NCBI RefSeq assembly: GCF_000297775.1
Contig: NZ_JH815520.1
Location: 31,803-65,323, forward strand
DNA length: 33,521 nt
Source: Sutterella wadsworthensis 2_1_59BFAA
GTDB lineage: Bacteria > Pseudomonadota > Gammaproteobacteria > Burkholderiales > Burkholderiaceae_F
Reading direction: 5' to 3'
A program made the translations under genes and the position numbers. Below, piece after piece: positions 4,656 to 16,958 of the stretch. Every line of letters starts with the position of its first letter. The first letter of the stretch is position 1. Under the pieces are notes generated by a model that did no database searches, was not told where the DNA came from, and saw only the letters and a list, made by a program, of their open reading frames with translations.

Positions 4656-5528
4656 TTAGAAGATCACGGGGTCGTAGACGCCCGCAAAGAGGACGGACGC
4701 GCGCAGGAGGAGTGCGCCGAGGATGGCTGCGGAGCCTGCGGCGAGCTTCGCGGCGTCGCTCCTGACGAACCCGAGCGCGAAGGGCACGACGAGGCCCAGC
4801 CCGACGGCGCCACCCCAGAAGAGCAGCGCGTTTTCGCCGCCGACGAGGGATTCGGCACCCGCAACGGCGCCCGGCGTCCCGGTGGCGATCGCCACGTGCA
4901 CGAAGGCAAAGAGGATGAAGGCTTCGCCCAGGTGCGCGAGCACGGCGGTCGTACCGATCCAGCCTGCGTGCGGAAGACGTCTGCGGGACTCGAGGATTTC
5001 AACGAGACCCACCGCGCAGGAGAGGCCCGAGGCGATCCAGAGGACGGGTAGCACGGCCGTGTTCCAGAGCGCAACGCCTTCGGCCTGCGTGAGGAGGAAG
5101 CCCGAGTAGGCCGTAGCCGCAAAGCCGAGCGCGGCGTTGAAGACGAGCAGCGCATGGTTGTTGAGGAGCGCCTCGGCCTTTTCGGCGGACTTCCACGCGA
5201 GGAGAAGCTGCACGCAGCAGGCGATGCAGAGCACGGTCAGCAGGCAGATGCCAATGAACATCCAGCTGCCGCCGTTGAAGCGGCCCGTGACGATCGACTT
5301 CACCAACGCAAGAGGCAGGTTGAGCATGCGCCCGAGGTGCGAGACCACGAAGAGCGTGCCCACGATCGCGCTCACGGTGCTCGCGACGAGCACGAGCTTG
5401 GAGCGGACCCAGAAGTTTAGGAAGAGGCCCATGCCTGCGAGGCCGATGAACCAGAGGAAGAAGGCGATCGTCCAGCCCCAGTGGGCGGTCGAAGCCTGTT
5501 CGGTCAGAAGTGCGAGTTCGTAGGTCAT
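4656..5528 (-). CDS. NrfD/PsrC-family membrane anchor subunit
   Basis: A 290-residue, almost wholly hydrophobic protein with about eight to nine transmembrane helices. It belongs by length and context to the NrfD/PsrC/DmsC-type quinol-oxidising anchors of complex iron-sulfur molybdoenzymes. Such subunits pass electrons from menaquinol to the ferredoxin subunit at the periplasmic face. Its ATG overlaps the ferredoxin stop in an ATGA (5525-5528), so the two are translationally coupled. It is the last gene of the operon and is followed by a terminator. It contains no haem-binding motif. The family assignment is solid on context; the choice between NrfD/PsrC and DmsC type was made by eye. Confidence 0.82.
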   Translation of the reverse strand: MTYELALLTEQASTAHWGWTIAFFLWFIGLAGMGLFLNFWVRSKLVLVASTVSAIVGTLFVVSHLGRMLNLPLALVKSIVTGRFNGGSWMFIGICLLTVLCIACCVQLLLAWKSAEKAEALLNNHALLVFNAALGFAATAYSGFLLTQAEGVALWNTAVLPVLWIASGLSCAVGLVEILESRRRLPHAGWIGTTAVLAHLGEAFILFAFVHVAIATGTPGAVAGAESLVGGENALLFWGGAVGLGLVVPFALGFVRSDAAKLAAGSAAILGALLLRASVLFAGVYDPVIF

Positions 5529-6112
5529 TTTGTCACCACCACGAAGAAGTTGGGTTTCGTGCCTTTGTGCGGCAGGAGCTTTTCGGTCTTCGAGACGGCG
5601 ATGCGCCTCGAGATCCTGCTCTCGGGATCATTGACGTTGCCGAAGGCCCTGGCCGAGACGGGGCAGGCCGCCACGCAGGCGGGACTCCTGCCTGCCTTGA
5701 CGAGCGCCTCGCAGCCTTCGCCCATGCACTTCATCGGCACGCCCGTGTCGGGATGCGTCCAACGCACGTCGTAGGGGCAGGACGCCACGCAGTAGCTGCA
5801 GCCCACGCACAGCGACTCGTCGGTCTTGACGAGGCCGGTTTCCGGATCGCGCCAGTTGGCGCCGAACGGACACGTCGAGATGCAGGGGGCGTCCGAGCAG
5901 TGCTGGCACTGCACGAGGAGCATCTGCGGACGGCGGGCGCGTTCGAGCGTGATGCGGCGGATGTTGGAGCCGAGCCAGTCGTGGCCCGGGATGTCGCGCT
6001 CAAGGAGCTCCGGGTGGTTGGTTTCAAGACAGGCCGCAATGCAGGCCGTGCAGCCGATGCAGCGGGTCGCATCGAAGAGATGCGCCATCTGAACGTTGTT
6101 TTCCTTCGTCAT
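5525..6112 (-). CDS. Four-cluster ferredoxin subunit of molybdo-reductase
   Basis: A 195-residue electron-transfer subunit of the DmsB/PsrB/PhsB type. Four cysteine groups are visible: CIGCTACIAAC near residue 18, CQHCSDAPCISTC, CVGCSYCVASCPYDVR, and the CMGEGC...CVAACP group. Together they bind four [4Fe-4S] clusters linking the anchor to the catalytic subunit. It has no signal sequence, so it is presumably co-exported with the Tat-dependent catalytic subunit. The start at 6112 has GGGAG about 10 bases upstream on the minus strand, and only 3 bases separate it from the previous stop. Confidence 0.92.
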   Translation of the reverse strand: MTKENNVQMAHLFDATRCIGCTACIAACLETNHPELLERDIPGHDWLGSNIRRITLERARRPQMLLVQCQHCSDAPCISTCPFGANWRDPETGLVKTDESLCVGCSYCVASCPYDVRWTHPDTGVPMKCMGEGCEALVKAGRSPACVAACPVSARAFGNVNDPESRISRRIAVSKTEKLLPHKGTKPNFFVVVTK

Positions 6113-6115
6113 GGC

Positions 6116-8701
6116 TTAAGCTCCCTTGCCGATGCGGCGCACGCGCACCGAAACGTTGTTGTTGACGTTGCCGCAGGCGACCTGACTGACGCCGCCCGCA
6201 AGCCACTGGGTGTTGAGACCTTCGCGGACCCATTCGTAGGCGGGGAGAAGCTTCTTCGTGCGAATGCCCGAGGAGAAGCCGTAGGAGAAGAGCACGCCCG
6301 CCATCACGCGGTTCGTGACCGTGACGGCCGAGACGCCCCTGACGCCCGTATCGAGCCCCTCGCACTCGATCATGTCGCCCGTCTCGATGCCGAGACGTTC
6401 GGCGTCGACGGGATTCATCCAGATCGTGCGGTCGCCCGTGTACTTCGACGGGAAGGTGAACATCGCAAGACCCGAGCAGCTCGCGCCGTTCTTGCCCGAG
6501 ACGATGACGAACTCGTCGGAGACGGGCTTGGGCGCCGTGTAGGACTTGGTGGGCGCGTATTCGGGAAGCGCCATGATGCCCTTTGCGGTGGCGGCGCCAA
6601 GCACGTAGAAGCTCACGAGCTCGGCCTTGCCGGTCGGCGTCATGAGGGGAGAGCGATACGGGAAGGTCTCGTAGGCCTTGGCCTTGACGAGTGCGAAGCC
6701 CTTTTCCTCGACCTCGCGGGCGATGCGGTCGCCTTCGCCCGGTTCGGCCTTGTTGCGGCCTGCGATGAACTTCGCCCAGGCCTTGTTGAGGAGTCCTTCG
6801 TTGTACCACTTGAGCCATTCCTCGCGGGTCTTGATTTCGGCGGCGTAGCCCGCGCGCGCGGCGCGTTCGGGATACATGCGGCGGAGGATCTCGAGGAGCT
6901 GCCAGATGTCGTGGCGGGCCTCGACGCCCTCGGGCGGCGCAACGGTGGAGTCGGACTTCTGCACCCAGCCGTCGCGGGCGTAGGAGACGCCGAGGTACTC
7001 GGGATTTTCAAGGAAGAAGGTCGACGGGAGCACGTAGTCGGCCCAGTCGTTCGATTCGATCGGCATCAGGTCCTGCGAGACGATCAGCTCGAGCGACTTG
7101 AAGGCCTCGATGAGGCGCGCGGAGTTGGGCTCGCGGTGGAACATGGCGCAGCCCGTCATGATGAGGGCGCGAACAGGGTAGGGCTTGCCCGTCTTCATGG
7201 CCTCGAAGGTCGAGGAGAGCGTGCCAATGCCTTCCGGGAAGTAAAGCTTGTCGAGAGGCTTGCCCGGCGCGACCTCCCAGGTCACGCCCGTCGGGCCCGT
7301 GCACTTCGTGCCCGCCTTCTTGATGCCGACGCCGCCGAAGCCGCTGCCCTGAGTGCGGATGAGGCCGCCCTCGCGGTCGAAGCGCCCGGTGAGGAGATTG
7401 AGGATGTTCTGCAGCGCAAAGCCTTCGACGTCGTTGCCGTTGCGGCTGGAGTACCAGCCATCGTCACAGACGCCCCTGAGGCGGAAGAAGTCGCGGGCGA
7501 TCGAGACGATGCGCGCGGCGGGAATGCCCGTGAGGGCGGAGACGGCTTCGGGCGCGTACTTCGCGTTCACGTCGGCGAAGGCCTGGAGGACCGTCTTCGC
7601 GTTGACGGTCTCGCCCGAGGCGAGCTTGACGGGGCCCTGCCAGAAGAGGGCGGGACGCACGTCGGGATTTTCTTCGAAGGCGACGGGCTGGTTCTTGTCG
7701 TTGAGCCTGAGATCCATGAAGGCGACGCTGCTCGTGCGTTCGTCGATGACGGCGAAGGCGCGTGCGCGGCCGTTGGCGCGCAGGTCGGACTCGGTGATCG
7801 GGGTGAGGTCCTCGCGAACGAGATAGGGGGCGTTCGTCCAGCGGCGCATCCACTCGAAGTCGGCGAGCTTTTCCTTGAGGCCGACGTGGATGACGGCGTG
7901 CAGGAAGGCGGCGTCGGTGCCGGGCTTGACGGGCACCCATTCGGATTCGGCAAATGCGCCTTCGGGCATGCGCGGGTCGACGAAGACGAGGCGGGCGCCG
8001 CGCTCGCGTGCTTCGGCCGCCTGGGCGAAGGAGCCGGCGGCGCAGTTGAGCGTGCGTCCGATGAGAAGGAGGTAGTCGACGTGCGCGTAGTCGGGGTCGA
8101 CAGCGGCGACGCCTGCGGTGTTGGAGCCGAAGACCATGCGGCGCGCGAGCGACGAGGCCGAGTTGCAGGTCGAGGAATGATTGACGACGTTGGGCGTGCC
8201 GAGCGCGTGCGCAAACCATTTCTGGGAACCCGTGAAGGAGTGGCTCGTGAGCATGACGGCGCGTTCGCCGTCGCGCTCGACGATCGTCTTGAGCTTCGCA
8301 GCGATTTCCGTGAGAGCTTGATCCCAGGAGATCTCCTCGAATTCACCCGAGCCGCGCTCGCCCTTGCGCTTCAGGGGCTTCCTGATGCGCATCGGATGGT
8401 TCCACGCCCAGAGCGTCTGGGCGCCGCGGCCGCAGTAGCCGCGCTGGGGATGGTCGGGATTGGGCATGATGCGCACGGTCGTGCGCGAGGCGGCCTCGCC
8501 TTCGCGGCGCATGGCGAGCAGCCCGCATCGGGCGCCGCACATGCAGCATGCAACGGGATGGGCCGTCCAGCCGTCGGCCTTCATGGCGTCGACTTCGGCC
8601 TTGACGGCGGCCCAGGAAAAGCCCGAGGCCGCTGCGCCTGCTGCCGCCGCGCCGATGAGCGTGCGGCGGGAGATGCCGGGCAGGTGTTCGGTGGTCGTCA
8701 T
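6116..8701 (-). CDS. Tat-exported molybdopterin oxidoreductase, Psr/Phs/Ttr/Arr clade
   Basis: An 861-residue catalytic subunit of the DMSO-reductase superfamily. The N-terminus has a Tat motif (SRRTLIG) and hydrophobic stretch. A [4Fe-4S] site follows (Cys52, Cys55, Cys59, then Cys90 in GYCGRG). Cys179 in SSTCNSAS occupies the molybdenum-ligand position; a Cys ligand is typical of polysulfide, thiosulfate, tetrathionate and arsenate reductases, whereas DMSO reductase uses Ser and NarG uses Asp. GSGEFEEISWDQAL resembles PhsA. Length lies between PhsA (about 760) and TtrA (about 1000). ATG 8701 has GGAGAG 8 bases upstream; ATG 8734 has weaker support. The substrate cannot be fixed from sequence; a sulfur substrate is favoured by the neighbouring sulfide-oxidation genes, and arsenate is the main alternative. 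Confidence 0.85.
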   Translation of the reverse strand: MTTTEHLPGISRRTLIGAAAAGAAASGFSWAAVKAEVDAMKADGWTAHPVACCMCGARCGLLAMRREGEAASRTTVRIMPNPDHPQRGYCGRGAQTLWAWNHPMRIRKPLKRKGERGSGEFEEISWDQALTEIAAKLKTIVERDGERAVMLTSHSFTGSQKWFAHALGTPNVVNHSSTCNSASSLARRMVFGSNTAGVAAVDPDYAHVDYLLLIGRTLNCAAGSFAQAAEARERGARLVFVDPRMPEGAFAESEWVPVKPGTDAAFLHAVIHVGLKEKLADFEWMRRWTNAPYLVREDLTPITESDLRANGRARAFAVIDERTSSVAFMDLRLNDKNQPVAFEENPDVRPALFWQGPVKLASGETVNAKTVLQAFADVNAKYAPEAVSALTGIPAARIVSIARDFFRLRGVCDDGWYSSRNGNDVEGFALQNILNLLTGRFDREGGLIRTQGSGFGGVGIKKAGTKCTGPTGVTWEVAPGKPLDKLYFPEGIGTLSSTFEAMKTGKPYPVRALIMTGCAMFHREPNSARLIEAFKSLELIVSQDLMPIESNDWADYVLPSTFFLENPEYLGVSYARDGWVQKSDSTVAPPEGVEARHDIWQLLEILRRMYPERAARAGYAAEIKTREEWLKWYNEGLLNKAWAKFIAGRNKAEPGEGDRIAREVEEKGFALVKAKAYETFPYRSPLMTPTGKAELVSFYVLGAATAKGIMALPEYAPTKSYTAPKPVSDEFVIVSGKNGASCSGLAMFTFPSKYTGDRTIWMNPVDAERLGIETGDMIECEGLDTGVRGVSAVTVTNRVMAGVLFSYGFSSGIRTKKLLPAYEWVREGLNTQWLAGGVSQVACGNVNNNVSVRVRRIGKGA

Positions 8702-9123
8702 AACGATCTCTCCGGTTTCGAATGATGGGTCCAAAGGCGCCGCGGCAAAGGGTCGGAATGACGCCGCAGGCCTTTCCCCAATGATCTCAGGGAACCCTTC
8801 ACGAAAATTCGCGGGGTATCCCTATAACCTTCCGTGAATAGTGCTTCCCCGCGTCATCGTGAATCGGCGATAAACGCCCGCAGTCCTGCACGTTCGGATG
8901 TTTTGCAGAATGATGAGGCGTTCAATCGGGTAAAAAGCCGAATGTTGACATGGGTCAACCTGATGCGAAATCATGAAGTGGCTTTCGATAGGGTTTGGCT
9001 ATTAGCCGGTATTATGATGCGGGAACTGCAGGAAAAACGGCGTCAAAAACGTCGGAGTTGGGGCGGGATATTCAGTGAAAACGGAGAATGATGCGGATTG
9101 AGGAGCCGCGGGGCGTGGAAAGG
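8702..9123. other. Intergenic leader/promoter region of the molybdo-reductase operon
   Basis: This stretch holds the FNR-type box at 8945-8958 and no convincing gene. A weak 85-codon GTG-started frame at 8834-9091 (+) has no family resemblance or ribosome site. A 6-base inverted pair (CGTGAA/TTCACG) about 115-135 bases upstream of the reductase start could form structure in the leader. No clear -10/-35 pair was found. Confidence 0.4.
8945..8958. promoter_or_regulatory. FNR/ANR-type binding site
   Basis: TTGAC-ATGG-GTCAA is a perfect inverted repeat with the 14-base geometry of the FNR/ANR/DNR consensus (TTGAT-N4-ATCAA), with C/G at the fifth position. The symmetry extends one more pair to GTTGAC/GTCAAC. 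It lies 244 bases upstream of the molybdo-reductase start and no other gene is close. Oxygen- or NO-responsive activation of that operon is the natural inference. Confidence 0.5.
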
Positions 9124-10243: not shown

Positions 10244-10868
10244 GAGAAGACTCCAGAAAAGGGTTGTTGAAGGGCGTGCGGTCCTGTGGTTGCCGCTACG
10301 CTCTAAAAATTGTGGGAATGAATCGTAGACGAAAAGGCCGTCGCTCGTCAAATTCATGGAACGTAATTTTGAAGTCTCCCGATGGTTCGCCTTTCCAAAA
10401 CGCCTTTCAGAGGCGCGTTTGAGGCGAAAAATAAAAAATAAAAGGATGGGAGCGTCGGCGCCGGCGTGGCGCGACAATCGCTTGCCTCATGAGAGGCGAT
10501 CGATCCCAATGAGGCGATAAATAAAGACTAAAATGCTCTGCAAACGGAAGGTGCAAAAGCATGAGTGAGTTAGCTACTAAAGCCGACGAAATCCGATACT
10601 TTGTGATTAGATCCCCTGAAAATGCCTGTGGCAGTTGCGTTCAGGAACCATTCTCAATTGAGGACGTGGTTGGATGAACGTTCTTGAAAAATGTTGACTT
10701 GGGGTTAACCCGCAATGCGGCTGCAGATGAGGGAAAACTACAATCGAATCGTGTCGGAGAGGGCGTTTTGCCTTGATTTTGCGAGCACCTCGGATCCCTA
10801 GGCCGAAGCGCAAGGGCGGGCGCGCCTCTCCAAAGCAATTAAAACCATTTATGCAACAGGAGCTCTTC
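10244..10868. other. Divergent regulatory region, exporter / sulfide-oxidation operon
   Basis: A 625-base AT-richer region between divergent genes, with no supportable coding frame. It holds a small stem (CGCCT/AGGCG near 10401-10416), repeated GAGGCGA words between about 10430 and 10517, and a 10-base palindrome GGGTTAACCC at 10702-10711. TTGACT (10694-10699) resembles a -35 box, but no matching -10 stands at the right distance. Both transcripts must start here; the exact promoters were not resolved. Confidence 0.5.
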
Positions 10869-12218
10869 ATGCTCGGACTCTATCCGACTTGGTTCGAACC
10901 CGGCGTGGGCAGCGGCTGGATCATCGGCTTCATCGCCACGATCCACGTCCTCTTCTCTCACGCCTCCGTCGGCGGCGCGGTGCTTTTCGCCTGGCTCGCC
11001 AACTATGCGGTGAGGAGGGACAAGCCCGCCTACCTCGCCTTCATCCGCCGCTACGGCCTCTTCCTCCTCATCTTCAGCTACGTGCTCGGCTCCATCACGG
11101 GTCCGGGCATCTGGTTCGCCGCCACGATCGCGTCCCCCCGCGGGATCTCGGCGCTCATCCACTCTTTCGTCTGGCTCTGGGCGAGCGAATGGGTGTTCTT
11201 CGTCATTGAGGTGATCGGCGTCTACCTGCTCGTCTATCTTGCGGGCCGCGTGGATCCTCGCACCCACACCCGCATTTCGATCATCTTCGGTCTGGCGTCC
11301 GTCGCGACGCTCCTCGTGATCGTCGGCATCCTCTCCTTCATGCTCTGGCCGGGGCAGGCCGACTGGCACCAGACCGGCGGCGTGCTCAATGCCTTCTTCG
11401 GTGAGAACACCTTCGCCCAGATGACGGCCCGCTTCATGTTCATGCTCACCATCACGGGCGTCGTCGGCGGCATGGTCGCAGGCCGCATCGCCGACCGCGA
11501 GGAGAAGGCCATGATCGCCCGCGTCCTGTCGGGCGCCGGCATCCTCGGCGTCATCGGCGGCTGGCTCGCCTTCCGTTGGTACATGACAACGCTCCCCGAC
11601 ATCGCCTACGAGACGATGGCGACGAGGCTTCCCGAAAGCTTCGGCATGATGATGGCCGCCTCCATCGGCGTCTCCGTCCTCTACTTCCTCGTCACCGCCT
11701 GGAAGCCGCAGGTGCTCCGTCCCTGGCTCGCCGGCGTGATGACGGTCGTCATCCTCGTGCTCGGCCTCGCGCCCGAGGAGACCGCCCGCGAAATCGTGCG
11801 CAAGCCCTGGGTCGCCGGCCAGTACGTCTACGGCAACCAGCTCGTCGGCCGCGACGTCCCTGCGCTGGGCATCCGCTCCGAACTTCCGCTCATGGCCGAG
11901 AAGGGCGTTCTCGCCACGCACCCCTTCATGCCCGAGCACCTTCGCAAGGTGACGCCTGAAAACGAGGTCGAGGCCGGCCGTGCGCTTGCACTCACGCTCT
12001 GCAGCAACTGCCACTCGCTCACGTCCACCGGCATGCGCCCCCTTGAGAGCTTCTTCCCGGCCGATGCCGATCGCGCCTTCCTCGCCGACTACCTCGGTGC
12101 GGGCCTCTACCGCGGCCACTCGGTCTACATGCCGCCCGTCCCGCTTCCCGAAGCCGAACGCGGCGCCCTTGCAGCCTACATTGAATCCATCCTTCCCAAG
12201 AAAGGAGCCGCCAAATGA
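10869..12218 (+). CDS. CydA-like membrane oxidase subunit with C-terminal haem c domain
   Basis: A 449-residue protein. Residues 1-310 form about nine transmembrane helices resembling cytochrome bd subunit I: histidines 26 and 31 in the first helix (ATIHVLFSHASVGG), and paired glutamates 107 and 114 (EWVFFVIE) where CydA has its proton-channel glutamates. In the helix where CydA carries its haem b558 histidine, the sequence reads MTARFMFML, with no histidine, by eye. The C-terminal 90 residues are a cytochrome c domain (C378-S-N-C381-H382, probable Met ligand in YMPP). ATG 10869 is chosen for the GGAG at 10859-10862. The family suggests O2 reduction; the attached haem c suggests that electrons enter from cytochrome c rather than quinol (inference). 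First gene of a five-gene operon. Confidence 0.72.
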   Translation: MLGLYPTWFEPGVGSGWIIGFIATIHVLFSHASVGGAVLFAWLANYAVRRDKPAYLAFIRRYGLFLLIFSYVLGSITGPGIWFAATIASPRGISALIHSFVWLWASEWVFFVIEVIGVYLLVYLAGRVDPRTHTRISIIFGLASVATLLVIVGILSFMLWPGQADWHQTGGVLNAFFGENTFAQMTARFMFMLTITGVVGGMVAGRIADREEKAMIARVLSGAGILGVIGGWLAFRWYMTTLPDIAYETMATRLPESFGMMMAASIGVSVLYFLVTAWKPQVLRPWLAGVMTVVILVLGLAPEETAREIVRKPWVAGQYVYGNQLVGRDVPALGIRSELPLMAEKGVLATHPFMPEHLRKVTPENEVEAGRALALTLCSNCHSLTSTGMRPLESFFPADADRAFLADYLGAGLYRGHSVYMPPVPLPEAERGALAAYIESILPKKGAAK

Positions 12219-13462
12219 ATGACATGATGCTCATGGCTCTGACGGATCCCGCCGGCGCGCCCGCACACCCGCTCATCTTCCTGGTGCTCGGCGTCGTCAC
12301 CTTCGCCCTTCACCTCACGGCCGTCAACGTGATGCTCGGCACCCTCGGGCTCGCCGCCTGGGGCGCCTTCTCGAAGAACCCGTACTGGCAGCGCCTCGCG
12401 GGCGCCCTCGGCACGACCGCCAAGGTCGCCGTCGCGGTCGCCATCGTGCTCGGCGTTGCGCCGCTCCTCTTCGTGCAGGTGATCTACGACCCGTTCTGGT
12501 ACACCTCGAACGTGATCTCGGCCTGGTGGCTCCTCGGCTTCCTCGCCATCCTCACGGTCGCCTACCTCGCGCTTTACCGTTTCTACGGCCTCAACCACCG
12601 CTATGAAGCCGACGGCAGGCCCGTGCACCTCGAGGGCGCCCCGAAGGGCGGCGTCTGGCTCGCCGGCAGCCTCGTGCTGATGCTCGTCTGCGGCCTCATC
12701 ATGCACGCCGTCGTCAACCAGTCGCTCCTGCCCGCCGAATGGATGAACTGGTACGCCCCGAACGGTGAGATCGAGCCCTACGGCAGGTCGCTGCACTCCG
12801 TGACGCCCGCCCGCGTGCTCTTCTTCCTGCTCCTCTCGCTTCCCGTGACGGCAGGCTGGCTCTTCGGCATGCGCCGCTACCTCCTCTCCTCGGGCGAGAC
12901 CGACTACGGTTACGTCGACTTCATCGAGGGCCTCGCCCACGGCATGGCCCGCGTGGGCTCCGCCCTGGTGCTCCTCGCCGGCGCCGCCTGGATGGTCACG
13001 CTGCCCGAGACGATGAGCTGGTTCGCCGGCTCCGTCTGGATGTGGATCGGCCTCGTTCCGCTCGTCTACTTCGGCGCGATGAGCTTCATCCAGAAGAAGC
13101 GCGTGCTCTGCATCTTCTGCAACTACATGGCCTTCGGCATGACCCTCGTCATGACGATCGTCCTCGCCGCGCTGCGCGAAGTGCTCCGCTTCGTGACGCT
13201 CCTCGAGGGCTCGGGCTACGACGCGCTCGCCTACAAGATCACCATGGACTGGCCGAGCACCGTGATCTTCTTCACGACCTTCCTCGTTGTCGGCGGCCTC
13301 AACCTGACGTACCTTCTCTCGCTCGCCTGGAAGAGCGGCCAGACCGAAGGCGTCTACCAGCCCTCCGCCGCGCTCTCGCGCGTGGGCGTCGCCGCCATCG
13401 CCTCGCTCGTCCTCTGGGTCGCAGGCTACTTCGCGATCGGCATCGCCGTCGTCAACGGTTAA
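12215..13462 (+). CDS. Second CydA-like membrane subunit (CydA'-type)
   Basis: A 415-residue protein with about ten transmembrane helices, overlapping the previous gene by ATGA (12215-12218). By eye it parallels that gene: HPLIFLVLGVVTFALHL (His33) matches its first helix, and TPARVLFFLLLSLPVTAG matches MTARFMFMLTITGVVGG. It therefore looks like a paralogue, not a CydB. Oxidases built from two CydA-type subunits (CydAA') are known in some archaea and bacteria; assigning this gene there is inference. A CIFC pair near residue 300 is conspicuous and unexplained. It has no haem c motif. A role as structural partner of the preceding subunit is the simplest reading. Confidence 0.6.
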   Translation: MNDMMLMALTDPAGAPAHPLIFLVLGVVTFALHLTAVNVMLGTLGLAAWGAFSKNPYWQRLAGALGTTAKVAVAVAIVLGVAPLLFVQVIYDPFWYTSNVISAWWLLGFLAILTVAYLALYRFYGLNHRYEADGRPVHLEGAPKGGVWLAGSLVLMLVCGLIMHAVVNQSLLPAEWMNWYAPNGEIEPYGRSLHSVTPARVLFFLLLSLPVTAGWLFGMRRYLLSSGETDYGYVDFIEGLAHGMARVGSALVLLAGAAWMVTLPETMSWFAGSVWMWIGLVPLVYFGAMSFIQKKRVLCIFCNYMAFGMTLVMTIVLAALREVLRFVTLLEGSGYDALAYKITMDWPSTVIFFTTFLVVGGLNLTYLLSLAWKSGQTEGVYQPSAALSRVGVAAIASLVLWVAGYFAIGIAVVNG

Positions 13463-13475
13463 GGAGTCACTGATC

Positions 13476-13817
13476 ATGAACATCATCAATACGACATGCG
13501 CTGCGGTCCTGATCCTCGCCGCTGCGGCCTCCCAGGCCGCGCCGGATCCCGCCAAGCTTTCGGGCAATCCCACGGGCGAGGCGCTCGCGCACACCTGCGC
13601 CGCCTGCCACGGGACGTACGGGGAACTGAAGGGCGAGCACTTCGTGCCGCTCGCAGGCATGGACGAAGGGGAGTTCATCACCTCCATGAAGGAGTTCCGC
13701 TCCCACAAGCGCCCGTCCTCGATCATGAGCCACATCGCCGAAGGGTACAGCGATGAGGAGTTCGAACGCATGGCCCGCTTCTTCAACGGCGTCCGCATCA
13801 AGGGAGACGTGAAATGA
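13476..13817 (+). CDS. Monohaem cytochrome c, FccA-like subunit
   Basis: A 113-residue protein with a Sec signal peptide (residues 1-21, ending ASQAA), one haem c site (CAACH) and a likely Met ligand in SSIMSHIAEGYSDEEFERMA. It begins 13 bases after the membrane gene and overlaps the flavoprotein start by ATGA. Size, periplasmic location and pairing with the flavoprotein match the cytochrome subunit of flavocytochrome c sulfide dehydrogenase, which takes electrons from the flavin. Some family members have two haems; this one has one. Confidence 0.85.
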   Translation: MNIINTTCAAVLILAAAASQAAPDPAKLSGNPTGEALAHTCAACHGTYGELKGEHFVPLAGMDEGEFITSMKEFRSHKRPSSIMSHIAEGYSDEEFERMARFFNGVRIKGDVK

Positions 13818-15181
13818 AAGCCATCAACATCCAGCGCCGCCGGGTCATGACCTCGCTCGCGCTCTCCGCACTCGCCGCGGCGCCCGGCGCCTCCTGGGCC
13901 CAGGCCGCCGCCAAGGCCCTCGCACCCGCCCGTGGCGCGAGGATCGTCGTGGTGGGCGCAGGCGTGGGCGGCGCCACGGCCGCCAAGTACCTCAAGCTCT
14001 TCAACAAGGACCTTGACGTCACGCTCATCGACCGCAATCCGCACTTCATCCGCCACTACGGCTCGTCGGAACTCATCACGGGCGCCGTCACGATGGAGGA
14101 CCTCACGGTCTCCTACGACGCGCTCTCCGACCGCTACGGTGTGCGCGTGGTTCAGGACACGATCGTCGGCCTCGACGCGGACCGCAGGACCGTCATCGGC
14201 GAAAAGGGCCGCTACGCCTACGACAAGCTCATCGTCTCGCCCGGCATCGAGCTGCTCTACGAAGGCATCCCGGGCTACAGCGCCGAGCTCGCCGCGACGA
14301 AGATCCCGAGCGGCTGGATCGCGGGTCCGCAGACGCAGCTCCTCGCCGACCAGCTCAAGGCCATGCCCCAGGGCGGCACCTTCTGCCTTGTCGCGCCGCC
14401 CAATCCGTATCGCTGCCCGCCCGGCCCCTACGAGCGCGCCGCGCTCGTGACCGAGTGGTGCGCGAAGCACAACCCTAGCGCGAAGATCATCGTCACCGAC
14501 CCGAAGAACAGCTTCGTGACCGACGAGACGATGCTCCTCGGCTGGAACCGTCTCTACGGCTTCCCGATCCCTGCGGACTACAAGGCGAAGCTCGACAAGT
14601 ACGCCTCGCCCGCACGTCCCGACTGCCGCCTCGAGTGGGTGCAGGAAAAGCAGGGCGGGCGCCCGCTCGCCATCGATGCGAGCGCCATGACCGTGACGAC
14701 GGAGGCGGGCGTCATCAAGGCTGACGTCATCAACGTCATCCCGCCGATGCGCGCCGCCAACATTGCGCTCGCAATGGGCCTTGCCAACAAGACGGGCTTC
14801 TGCCCGATCGACCGCCGCACGTTCGAGAGCACGATCATTCCTGACGTCTACGTGCTCGGCGACGCCTCAATCGCCGACGCGATGCCCAAGTCGGGCTTCT
14901 CGGCCAACACGCAGGCCAAGACGACCGCGCGTGCGATCGTCGAGGAGCTCGCCGGCCGCGAGATCCCCGAGCCCGTCTGGTCCAACACCTGCTACGCGCT
15001 GGCGGGCGAGGACTACGGTCTCTTCGTCGCCGACGTCTTCCGCATCATGGACGGAAAGATTGGCCGCACCAACACGCGCGCCCGCTACCAGTACCTCAAG
15101 GCCCAGCCTGCCGAGCAGGCCCTCGCCGCCCAGTACCTCCACAGCTGGATGAACACGATCACCGCCGACAGTTTCGGCTGA
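13814..15181 (+). CDS. fccB: Flavocytochrome c sulfide dehydrogenase flavoprotein (FccB/SoxF-like)
   Basis: A 455-residue periplasmic flavoprotein with a Tat signal (QRRRVMTSLALSALAA...AQA), an FAD-binding GAGVGGATAAKYL and the terminal flavin motif VLGDASIADAMPKSGFSAN. The family's redox-active cysteines are recognisable: Cys201 in NPYRCPPGPYERA and Cys393 in NTCYALAGEDYG, with a further Cys330 in GFCPID. This enzyme oxidises sulfide to sulfur or polysulfide and passes electrons to its cytochrome c subunit, encoded immediately upstream. The C-terminal FCSD domain is present, so the protein looks complete. Sulfide:quinone oxidoreductase is less likely given the periplasmic signal and the cytochrome partner. 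Confidence 0.88.
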   Translation: MKAINIQRRRVMTSLALSALAAAPGASWAQAAAKALAPARGARIVVVGAGVGGATAAKYLKLFNKDLDVTLIDRNPHFIRHYGSSELITGAVTMEDLTVSYDALSDRYGVRVVQDTIVGLDADRRTVIGEKGRYAYDKLIVSPGIELLYEGIPGYSAELAATKIPSGWIAGPQTQLLADQLKAMPQGGTFCLVAPPNPYRCPPGPYERAALVTEWCAKHNPSAKIIVTDPKNSFVTDETMLLGWNRLYGFPIPADYKAKLDKYASPARPDCRLEWVQEKQGGRPLAIDASAMTVTTEAGVIKADVINVIPPMRAANIALAMGLANKTGFCPIDRRTFESTIIPDVYVLGDASIADAMPKSGFSANTQAKTTARAIVEELAGREIPEPVWSNTCYALAGEDYGLFVADVFRIMDGKIGRTNTRARYQYLKAQPAEQALAAQYLHSWMNTITADSFG

Positions 15182-15196
15182 TCCCGGAGAAGAACA

Positions 15197-15940
15197 ATGA
15201 ATGCAAGACTGATGATTTTGAGCGCGTTCGCCGCCCTCCCGATGCTCGCCTCGGGCGCAGCCTTTACGCCCGCCGAACTCGACAAGGCCGTGGCTTCGCT
15301 CCCGAAGGCCAACGTCATGGGCGGATTCGCCGTGCACAGCAAGCAGTTCTGCGGCTCCTGCCACGGTCCCAACGGCATTGCACCCACCGCCAACTGGCCG
15401 CACGTCGCGGGCCAGCCCTTCGAGGTCACCGCCAAGGCGCTCCTCGACTACCGCGACGGCCGACGCACGGGCGGCGCCCAGGCCGCGATCATGACGGCTG
15501 CCGCCAAGCGCCTCACCGACCAGCAGATCGCCGACGTCTCGGCGCTCTACGAGATGCTCCCCGGCCCCGACGGCAAAACGTTTGACGTGGGCAAGAAGGA
15601 TCGCACGCCCGTCGAGGGCGTCGACGTCGCAAGGCTCGTGCGCAAGGGTGATCCCGCCCGCGCGATCACGCCCTGCGCCGCCTGCCACGGCATGACCGGC
15701 AAGGGCCGCTCGAACGGCAAGGTGCCCGTCCTGCACGGACAGAACCCGACGTATCTCGCCGCACAGCTTCGCGACTATCGCGACGGACGTCGCGACAACG
15801 ACGTCCTGAAGGAAATGCGCTTCTTCGCGCAGAAGCTCACCGACGATGAAATCAACGCGCTCGCCGATTTCTACGCGGGCGAAACCGGTTGGCCGGGCGT
15901 CAAGCCCGCCAGGCCCGCGGCCAAGGCTGCGGCAAAGTAG
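15197..15940 (+). CDS. Dihaem cytochrome c4-like protein
   Basis: A 247-residue periplasmic protein with a signal peptide (residues 1-19) and two tandem class I cytochrome domains carrying CGSCHGPNG and CAACHGMTGKG, the classic cytochrome c4 layout. Each domain ends in a YRDGRR segment. It follows the flavoprotein by 15 bases. Cytochrome c4 commonly delivers electrons to terminal oxidases; here it could carry electrons from the flavocytochrome to the haem c domain of the CydA-like subunit (inference). Confidence 0.88.
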   Translation: MNARLMILSAFAALPMLASGAAFTPAELDKAVASLPKANVMGGFAVHSKQFCGSCHGPNGIAPTANWPHVAGQPFEVTAKALLDYRDGRRTGGAQAAIMTAAAKRLTDQQIADVSALYEMLPGPDGKTFDVGKKDRTPVEGVDVARLVRKGDPARAITPCAACHGMTGKGRSNGKVPVLHGQNPTYLAAQLRDYRDGRRDNDVLKEMRFFAQKLTDDEINALADFYAGETGWPGVKPARPAAKAAAK

Positions 15941-15989
15941 GCGGGAGCCGAGAAGGGGTTTGAAGCCTCCGCCTGCTGACGACAATGCG

Positions 15990-16025
15990 AGGGCCGCCTG
16001 TTGGAGATGGACGACGGGCGGCCCT
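15990..16025 (+). terminator. Hairpin after the sulfide-oxidation operon
   Basis: AGGGCCGCC (15990-15998) and GGCGGCCCT (16017-16025) form a perfect 9-base stem with an 18-base loop, 50 bases past the cytochrome c4 stop. No T-run follows, so termination is possible but not certain. Confidence 0.4.
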
Positions 16026-16163
16026 TCGCACATCCACGAACCGTGCGGGAAAACGCGGCGGCGAAAAGCCCCTCCGACGGTCTAGACTCTCTGCACCGGA
16101 CCGAGGCGGATTTCATTGAGTCGCCGTCGGTTCCTGAGAATTATCAAACATGGGAGAGCCATC

Positions 16164-16958
16164 ATGAAGCGAGCCGCCGTCATCGGCTGCGGTGCCTTGG
16201 GCACCATTCTTGTCACGAACTTTGCCAGGGCCGAGGGCTGGACGCTCACGGGCGTCATGGCCCGAACGAAGGCGCACGCCGAGGCGCTCGCCGCCAACGC
16301 GGGCTGCCGCGCAGCAACGACGCTTGAGGAGCTCCTCGCCGACAAGCCCGACCTCGTCGTCGAGATCGCGGGCATCGGCGCCGCAAAGGCCTATGGCGAA
16401 GCCGTGCTCGAAGCAGGCTGTGACTTCGTGCTCGTCTCCGCAGGCGCGCTCGCCGACGCCGACTGGAAGGCTCGCATGACCGAAACGGCGCTGCGCACGG
16501 GCCGCCGCATCCACGTCGCCTCGGGCGCCATCGGCGGCTTCGACGTGCTGCGCACGGCCGCCCTCATGGGCGTCGAGGAGGCGACCTTCGAGAGCACCAA
16601 GTCCCCGAAGAGCCTCTCGGGCGCGCCCGGCCTCATGGGCGTGGAGCTCCCCGCCGACCGCGAGACGCTCGCCTTCGAGGGCGGCGTCGAGGAGGCCGTC
16701 AGGGGCTTCCCGAAGAACATCAACGTCGCGGCCGCCACGGTTTCCGCCGCCGACGCTCCGAATGTCAGGGTGCGCCTCGTCGCCAGTCCCGGCCTCACCG
16801 TCAACACCCATCACATCGACGTGAAGGCGGGCGAGATGCACTGCGAGCTCTTCTTCCACTCCGCCTACGATCCGAAGAACCCGCGCTCAAGCACGTCCAC
16901 CGCCTGGAGCGTGCTCGCGCTTCTCAAGAACCTCGAGAGCCCGATCTCCTACTTCTGA
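16164..16958 (+). CDS. nadX: L-aspartate dehydrogenase
   Basis: A 264-residue cytoplasmic enzyme converting L-aspartate to iminoaspartate with NAD(P)+, the entry step of de novo NAD synthesis in organisms without, or besides, NadB. It has an N-terminal Rossmann fold (VIGCGALGT), the conserved FPKNINVAAA segment, and NTHHIDVKAG with the catalytic His. An open frame runs in from 16116, but ATG 16164 has GGAGAG at 16153-16158. No nadA or nadC lies nearby, so it may act in aspartate deamination or NAD synthesis. Confidence 0.88.
   Translation: MKRAAVIGCGALGTILVTNFARAEGWTLTGVMARTKAHAEALAANAGCRAATTLEELLADKPDLVVEIAGIGAAKAYGEAVLEAGCDFVLVSAGALADADWKARMTETALRTGRRIHVASGAIGGFDVLRTAALMGVEEATFESTKSPKSLSGAPGLMGVELPADRETLAFEGGVEEAVRGFPKNINVAAATVSAADAPNVRVRLVASPGLTVNTHHIDVKAGEMHCELFFHSAYDPKNPRSSTSTAWSVLALLKNLESPISYF

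Follow-up and report, generated by a model that had tools for sequence, protein, structure and literature searches.

The stretch of DNA analysed here (the window) comprises 33,521 nucleotides of Sutterella wadsworthensis 2_1_59BFAA (contig NZ_JH815520.1, positions 31,803 to 65,323 of the forward strand) and carries, at positions 10869-15940, five collinear genes on the + strand, A-B-C-D-E, considered here as a putative operon for electron transfer from sulfide to oxygen. The oxidase genes, A and B, come first and are followed by the genes of a cytochrome (C), a flavoprotein (D) and a cytochrome c4-like protein (E):

10869-12218, + strand: gene A, CydA-like core followed at the C-terminus by a heme c domain (CxxCH at 12000-12014, residues 378-382); putative O2-reducing subunit of an OR-C-type oxidase
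12215-13462, + strand: gene B, second CydA-fold membrane subunit, paralogue of A
13476-13817, + strand: gene C, FccA-like monoheme cytochrome c (CxxCH at 13596-13610)
13814-15181, + strand: gene D, FccB-like flavoprotein (C201 at 14414-14416, C330 at 14801-14803, H81 at 14054-14056)
15197-15940, + strand: gene E, diheme cytochrome resembling cytochrome c4, with CxxCH at 15350-15364 and 15674-15688; putative shuttle

A overlaps B, and C overlaps D, by 4 bases, gaps of 13 and 15 bases separate B from C and D from E, respectively, and an AGGAG-like stretch precedes the start of each gene.

In the product of gene A, the heme c domain comes after eight hydrophobic segments. Against the Pfam family PF01654 it scores 22.7 bits (E 4e-5), just under the cut-off of 26.2, over approximately the first half of the model. 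When its profile was compared with that of 29 canonical CydA proteins, a match of 95% probability (E 2e-8) was obtained over residues 19-235 and the four core helices; with only two or four canonical sequences the comparison (hhalign) gave no match or a weak one, and the full 29 were needed. A search of the PDB with the A profile gave 119 matches, of which the 60 listed concern the cytochrome c domain. The AlphaFold model of A (mean predicted local distance difference test score, pLDDT, of 82) has its nearest fold in subunit I of cytochrome bd, with template modeling scores of about 0.5 (about 0.5-0.6 when those of B are included). In CydA, residues H19, E107, E445 and R448 act as ligands of the O2-site hemes or belong to the proton path. 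H26 of A aligns at H19 and E114 at E107, and the motif E308xxR311KP aligns on E445xxR448QP with a score of 20.7, versus a top score of 17.6 among 100 column shuffles. An additional glutamate of A, E107, would correspond to CydA E99 provided that A lacks the leucine insertion at position 101 of the E. coli protein (PMC8951039; this and the other articles cited by PMC number are represented by excerpts). None of the five residues (H26, E107, E114, E308 and R311) varies among the 34 aligned rows of A (alignment A1), which represent the window and 33 of 40 loci found by scanning genome contigs with A; the other seven (L045, L059, L064, L067, L071, L072 and L073) were left out as cut, interrupted or long fusions. 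The column of CydA H186, the histidine of heme b558, holds His in 29 of 29 canonical CydA proteins and in one of the 37 A rows with a letter there. As for the Q-loop residues K252 and E257, the confident alignment of A stops at CydA residue 238 and the Pfam match at model position 200 of 418. As aligned, A keeps the residues of the dihaem O2 site and has lost the b558 histidine, whose role in electron entry was probably taken over by the heme c domain.

Some copies of A depart from this layout. At L064 (8001-11999) some 2.9 kb of other DNA separates two parts of A and at L059 (6984-8330) the frame of A is interrupted, B-C-D-E remaining in both, and in two Desulfocapsa- and Desulfobulbus-type records (L067, 3451-5985; L073, 7995-10544) the frame is far longer and holds eight CxxCH motifs, a multiheme version of the protein.

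Gene B has no match in Pfam or NCBIfam, and its profile finds none by sequence search in the PDB. By profile comparison, B is related to A (96%, E 5e-9) and weakly to CydA (50%, E 2e-4); its predicted structure (mean pLDDT 88) is nearest in fold to cytochrome bd subunit I, CydB chains ranking lower. His33 of B is invariant in all 39 aligned rows (alignment A2; the window and 38 of the 40 loci, L045 and L072 showing no B). A CxxC-N motif at residues 299-302 (13109-13120), which is not a heme c site, occurs only in six Sutterellaceae rows of the 39.

Compared with canonical CydAB, A shares the core helices, the equivalents of H19, E107, E445 and R448 and the predicted fold, but it has no counterpart of H186, its confident match ends before the Q-loop and a heme c domain is added, whereas B shows no match to the CydB family. 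A canonical quinol bd oxidase was rejected as an identity for A/B, since both the H186 counterpart and the CydB partner are missing. The OR-C type of Murali, Gennis and Hemp (2021) reportedly consists of a CydA-like core with the O2-site residues and no b558 histidine, a fused C-terminal heme c and a second CydA-like subunit, and A/B show each of these features. Judged from its sequence, A/B resembles a cytochrome c-fed, OR-C-like member of the bd superfamily and not a quinol oxidase; it differs from this description of the OR-C type in having a likely physiological donor, an FccB-like dehydrogenase with two cytochromes, encoded alongside. The cytochrome bd superfamily is divided into three families, qOR, OR-C and OR-N, and OR-N oxidases are thought likely to use cytochrome c (PMC10839748). 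The OR-N CydAA' of Nitrospinota is similar to A/B in belonging to this superfamily, in its proposed two CydA-like subunits and in its proposed use of cytochrome c, but it represents another family, and the excerpt describes no link to a sulfide dehydrogenase (PMC10839748).

It could be argued that A/B is not an oxygen reductase at all but uses another acceptor (e.g., NO or H2O2) or passes electrons between cytochrome c and another partner. The literature examined, seen in excerpts, describes no characterised enzyme of the A/B type, the histidine of the low-spin heme b558 is lost, and B combines a CydA-type fold with the lack of a CydB match. Moreover, several homologues come from records named Desulfobulbus, Desulfocapsa, Deferribacterales and the like, groups with anaerobic metabolism. 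However, the residues of the O2 site and of the proton path are invariant, and the linkage to a dehydrogenase (see below) is recurrent and, in the family of the window, is found in genomes without a detected heme-copper oxidase. On balance, an acceptor or partner of this sort appears quite unlikely.

The remaining three genes encode proteins of known kinds. In the PDB, C is matched best by FccA heme subunits (3vrd_A and 1fcd_C) and E by cytochromes c4 (6q2u, 8uf3 and 1etp), in line with the two CxxCH motifs of E, which lie in two tandem c4-related heme c domains. Cytochrome c4 usually partners a cbb3-type oxidase. Unlike in that arrangement, E adjoins an FccB-like gene, and no cbb3-type oxidase was detected in the genome of the window. 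In two Chromatiaceae loci (L043, 10843-11433; L048, 8070-8552) two C-like heme stretches, and not one, lie between B and D, which could be either two cytochromes or one diheme FccA.

D matches PF21706 (128 bits, cut-off 27) and PF09242 (59 bits, cut-off 26), and its three best PDB matches are flavoprotein chains of flavocytochrome c sulfide dehydrogenase (FCSD; 5n1t, 1fcd and 3vrd). The earlier note, made from the letters of the window, had named FccA-like, FccB-like and cytochrome c4 genes, which the PDB matches of C, D and E and the two Pfam families of D confirm; its two CydA-like membrane subunits agree with the profile comparisons and predicted folds of A and B, and its tight packing (4-base overlaps, gaps under 16 bases) with the spacing given above, while the heme c domain at the end of A had escaped it. 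D retains the motif RCPPGPYE and the redox cysteines C201 and C330, which are invariant in the 13 rows of alignment A3 (the window and 12 of 23 D loci) and present in every row of D linked to A and B; one other FCSD row, L021, is without the second of them. In known FCSD enzymes the paired redox cysteines take up and oxidise sulfide, and flavin adenine dinucleotide (FAD) is bound covalently to a further conserved cysteine (PMC12010331). It is this last residue that is replaced in D: alignment with 1fcd places H81 at its position, and His or Pro stands there in 27 of 27 distinct AB-linked rows. In a sister clade that lacks AB, the cysteine is kept in four of four rows (first copy of L122, L123, L124 and L129), as it is in 12 of 12 other FCSD rows and in 14 other FCSD loci among the best family matches listed. 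D is called FccB-like here, and not filed as a standard FCSD, because of this replacement.

In the D tree, from which rows of up to 400 residues (can_L022 and can_L026) and four duplicates of the genes at L035, L037, L038 and L039 were left out, the linked, sister and other FCSDs form single clades with support of 100/99, 98/91 and 99/99, respectively. Together with the distribution of the cysteine, this topology is most simply explained by loss of the residue on the branch where C-D-E joined AB. Relative to FccAB (PDB 1fcd, 3vrd and 5n1t), then, D and C are homologous to both subunits and retain PF21706, PF09242, the redox cysteines and CPPGPYE, but the covalent-FAD cysteine has given way to His or Pro in the 27 linked rows, the C subunit is monoheme (a form also known in some FCSDs; PMC12010331), and the operon adds its own c4-like cytochrome and membrane oxidase genes.

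The altered flavin site also bears on the substrate, and it is conceivable that the chain is the same, with AB reducing O2, while D oxidises polysulfide, persulfide or a thiol and not free sulfide. The cysteine, absent in 27 of 27 linked rows and kept in 4/4 sister and 12/12 other rows, indicates that the flavin environment changed on exactly the AB-linked branch, and 2.1 kb upstream, on the opposite strand, there is a set of polysulfide/thiosulfate-reductase-like genes. Both redox cysteines and RCPPGPYE are nevertheless kept, and cysteines of this kind oxidise sulfide in known enzymes (PMC12010331). A substrate other than free sulfide seems rather unlikely.

The genome of the window (98% complete) carries one canonical CydA elsewhere, and neither a heme-copper oxidase nor a bc1-type cytochrome b was detected in it. 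More broadly, among 67 genomes of its family, A occurs in seven, namely this genome and six of the ten genomes of one other genus; a match to COX1, present in 27 of the 67, and one to cytochrome b PF00033, present in 18, were found in none of these seven. Since heme-copper oxidase and bc1-type cytochrome b went undetected, a closed branch from sulfide to O2 is likely to be encoded. In E. coli, the bd oxidases are not inhibited at 58 µM H2S, and the half-maximal inhibitory concentration for bo3 is 1.1 µM (PMC8657789). By analogy, and with A/B a distant relative of these enzymes, this insensitivity would offer a rationale for coupling a sulfide dehydrogenase to an acceptor of the bd type, since sulfide poisons heme-copper oxidases.

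We consider it probable that the operon encodes a closed periplasmic electron chain from sulfide to oxygen, in which AB is a bd-family cytochrome c oxidase of the OR-C type and D, C and E are its dedicated donors. D, with its FAD and the C201/C330 pair, would oxidise sulfide in the periplasm and hand electrons to the heme of C, from which the diheme cytochrome E may ferry them to the C-terminal heme c domain of A. Electrons would then reach the pair of membrane hemes in A, B serving as its partner, and there O2 would be reduced to water, the protons coming from the cytoplasm as they do in cytochrome bd. The substrate, the electron path, O2 as the acceptor and the energy coupling of such a chain are all inferred from the genes. 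The sequence sulfide, flavin, cytochrome c, bd-like oxidase put forward in the earlier note stands as the best reading of these genes, except that the oxidase is not the usual bd quinol type and appears to be fed by cytochrome c through its own heme c.

All five genes, in the order A-B-C-D-E, are present at 23 of the 40 loci, and this order is kept in 23/23 complete loci, two of which (L059 and L064) have an interrupted A. Four belong to Sutterellaceae (Duodenibacillus), where the operon was to be sought according to the earlier note, but it is not peculiar to that family: two are from Chromatiaceae (Thiocapsa and Thiohalocapsa), and 17 from Comamonadaceae (Hydrogenophaga, Rhodoferax, Limnohabitans and Paenacidovorax), Burkholderiaceae, Sphaerotilaceae (Rubrivivax albus) or unassigned records (L049). 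At three loci (L036, L045 and L072) the contig ends before D becomes visible.

As the 40 loci were found through A, genome surveys constitute the fairer test of linkage. The D clade was delimited at E <= 1e-200, a limit chosen after a gap in the values had been seen (1e-210 versus 1e-158 and weaker), and A at E <= 1e-15 in a survey of 399 genomes of the order. That survey found A in eight genomes and the D clade in six, each with A on the same contig at a distance of up to about 3 kb; the two remaining A genomes (L080 and L081) had no D clade. A second survey, of 117 genomes of the family of G429, found the D clade in seven genomes, all with A and six with it on the same contig, the end of B adjoining C-D-E at a contig end in G526; four of 11 A genomes (G518, G520, G543 and G609) had no D clade. 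G429 is in both surveys, leaving 12 distinct D-clade genomes and 18 distinct A-bearing ones: A accompanies D in 12/12 (adjacent in 11, split by a contig end in one), and six of the 18 lack the D clade.

Several observations weigh against the proposed chain. Concerning the oxidase, the placement of E308 and R311 on E445 and R448 relies on a short stretch (hhalign 11%, E 0.003) beyond the confidently aligned region, and the OR-N type, a relative, lacks experimental confirmation (PMC10839748). No candidate cytochrome c oxidase other than A/B was found in the genome, in searches that did not extend to further enzymes using cytochrome c, such as peroxidases and nitrite reductases. Nor is the absence of COX1 specific, as it holds for 40 of the 67 family genomes, 33 of them among the 60 without A. 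On the dehydrogenase side, D is without the covalent-FAD cysteine of known FCSDs, so that its substrate or potential may differ, and the role of FCSD itself is unsettled, given that the rate of sulfide oxidation is unchanged in knockouts (PMC10892978). At the level of transcription, a consensus scan of 10400-16200 detected no promoter-like site (and three terminator-like sites, against 3.6 expected), so the five genes are treated as one presumably cotranscribed unit on the basis of spacing and conserved order. Finally, AB occurs without D at 14 of the 40 loci, of which six (L055, L056, L058, L060, L065 and L066) combine A and B with a c-type cytochrome and eight (L061, L063, L067-L071 and L073; L071 is cut just after A) have A and B only; records named Desulfobulbus, Desulfocapsa, Deferribacterales and Zixiibacteriota are among the bearers of AB without D. 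In G028, a second copy consisting of A-B-E without C and D (L083, 2200-5659) stands beside the full operon, which suggests that AB and a c4-like cytochrome can work with another donor. Taken together, these D-less loci and the second copy indicate that AB is not tied to sulfide as such.

The same loci could be taken to mean that AB and C-D-E are two independent modules brought together by chance or in a loose neighbourhood. AB is also found without D at L125-L128 (L126 is cut inside B), and C-D-E is found without AB in the sister modules. Yet the linked D proteins form one clade (100/99), 12 of 12 D-clade survey genomes carry A, and gene order is uniform across the complete loci, which makes such a coincidence highly improbable. 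The concern, voiced in the earlier note, that homologues of the membrane genes might lie mostly away from fcc genes is not borne out, D being accompanied by A in all 12 survey genomes; AB itself also stands apart from D, at 14 loci and in six survey genomes.

Since both AB without D and C-D-E without AB exist, the operon appears to have been put together from two pre-existing modules. The sister modules consist of a monoheme cytochrome, an FccB-like protein and a diheme cytochrome (L122, 5660-8016; L123, 6376-8726; L124, 5286-7636; L129, 6432-8797), and canonical cydAB or pieces of it lie near two of the four (L129 and L123). In the A tree, the D-linked rows and the contig-cut L036 form one branch (100/99). 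In both the A and D trees the Chromatiaceae copies branch within or beside Comamonadaceae-type copies, and transfer of the operon between families is therefore likely. A was found in none of the 11 other genomes of the window's own genus, a patchiness that hints at lateral gain or repeated loss. As to how the chain arose, we see about an even chance that an OR-C-type oxidase acquired its own sulfide dehydrogenase, yielding a one-operon, quinone-independent sulfide:O2 chain, also in bacteria without detectable heme-copper oxidases and bc1, and that covalent attachment of FAD was given up when the modules joined, retuning D to feed the oxidase.

Each part taken singly is of a familiar kind. No description of the combined operon, of how widely it is distributed, of its association with an altered FccB clade or of the donors assigned here was found among the open-licence papers listed, a scope that excludes the 2021 family paper; the neighbourhood may already be in print. 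For bd-superfamily types without a quinol site, the excerpts of the literature examined give no proven electron donor, and the operon names one that can be tested. If the proposed chain is real, it would provide sulfide-tolerant joint removal of sulfide and traces of O2 in bacteria without heme-copper oxidases or bc1. The substitution at the FAD-binding position, on the branch that unites AB with C-D-E, offers a concrete prediction for the bench.

Other genes lie next to the operon or to its relatives. At L055 (7108-7683), in a Halothiobacillus-like record, a Tll0287-like protein (PF11845) with one CxxCH is encoded directly upstream of A-B and may be a sensor or a donor. In the window, a thiosulfate/polysulfide-reductase-type set on the - strand (4656-8734), comprising an NrfD-like membrane protein, a 4Fe-4S protein and a PhsA-like molybdopterin oxidoreductase, lies about 2.1 kb upstream of the operon and divergent from it, and the making and the removal of sulfide may thus be neighbours. 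A TehA/SLAC1-type transporter gene (PF03595; 9194-10477, - strand) is likewise divergent from the operon.

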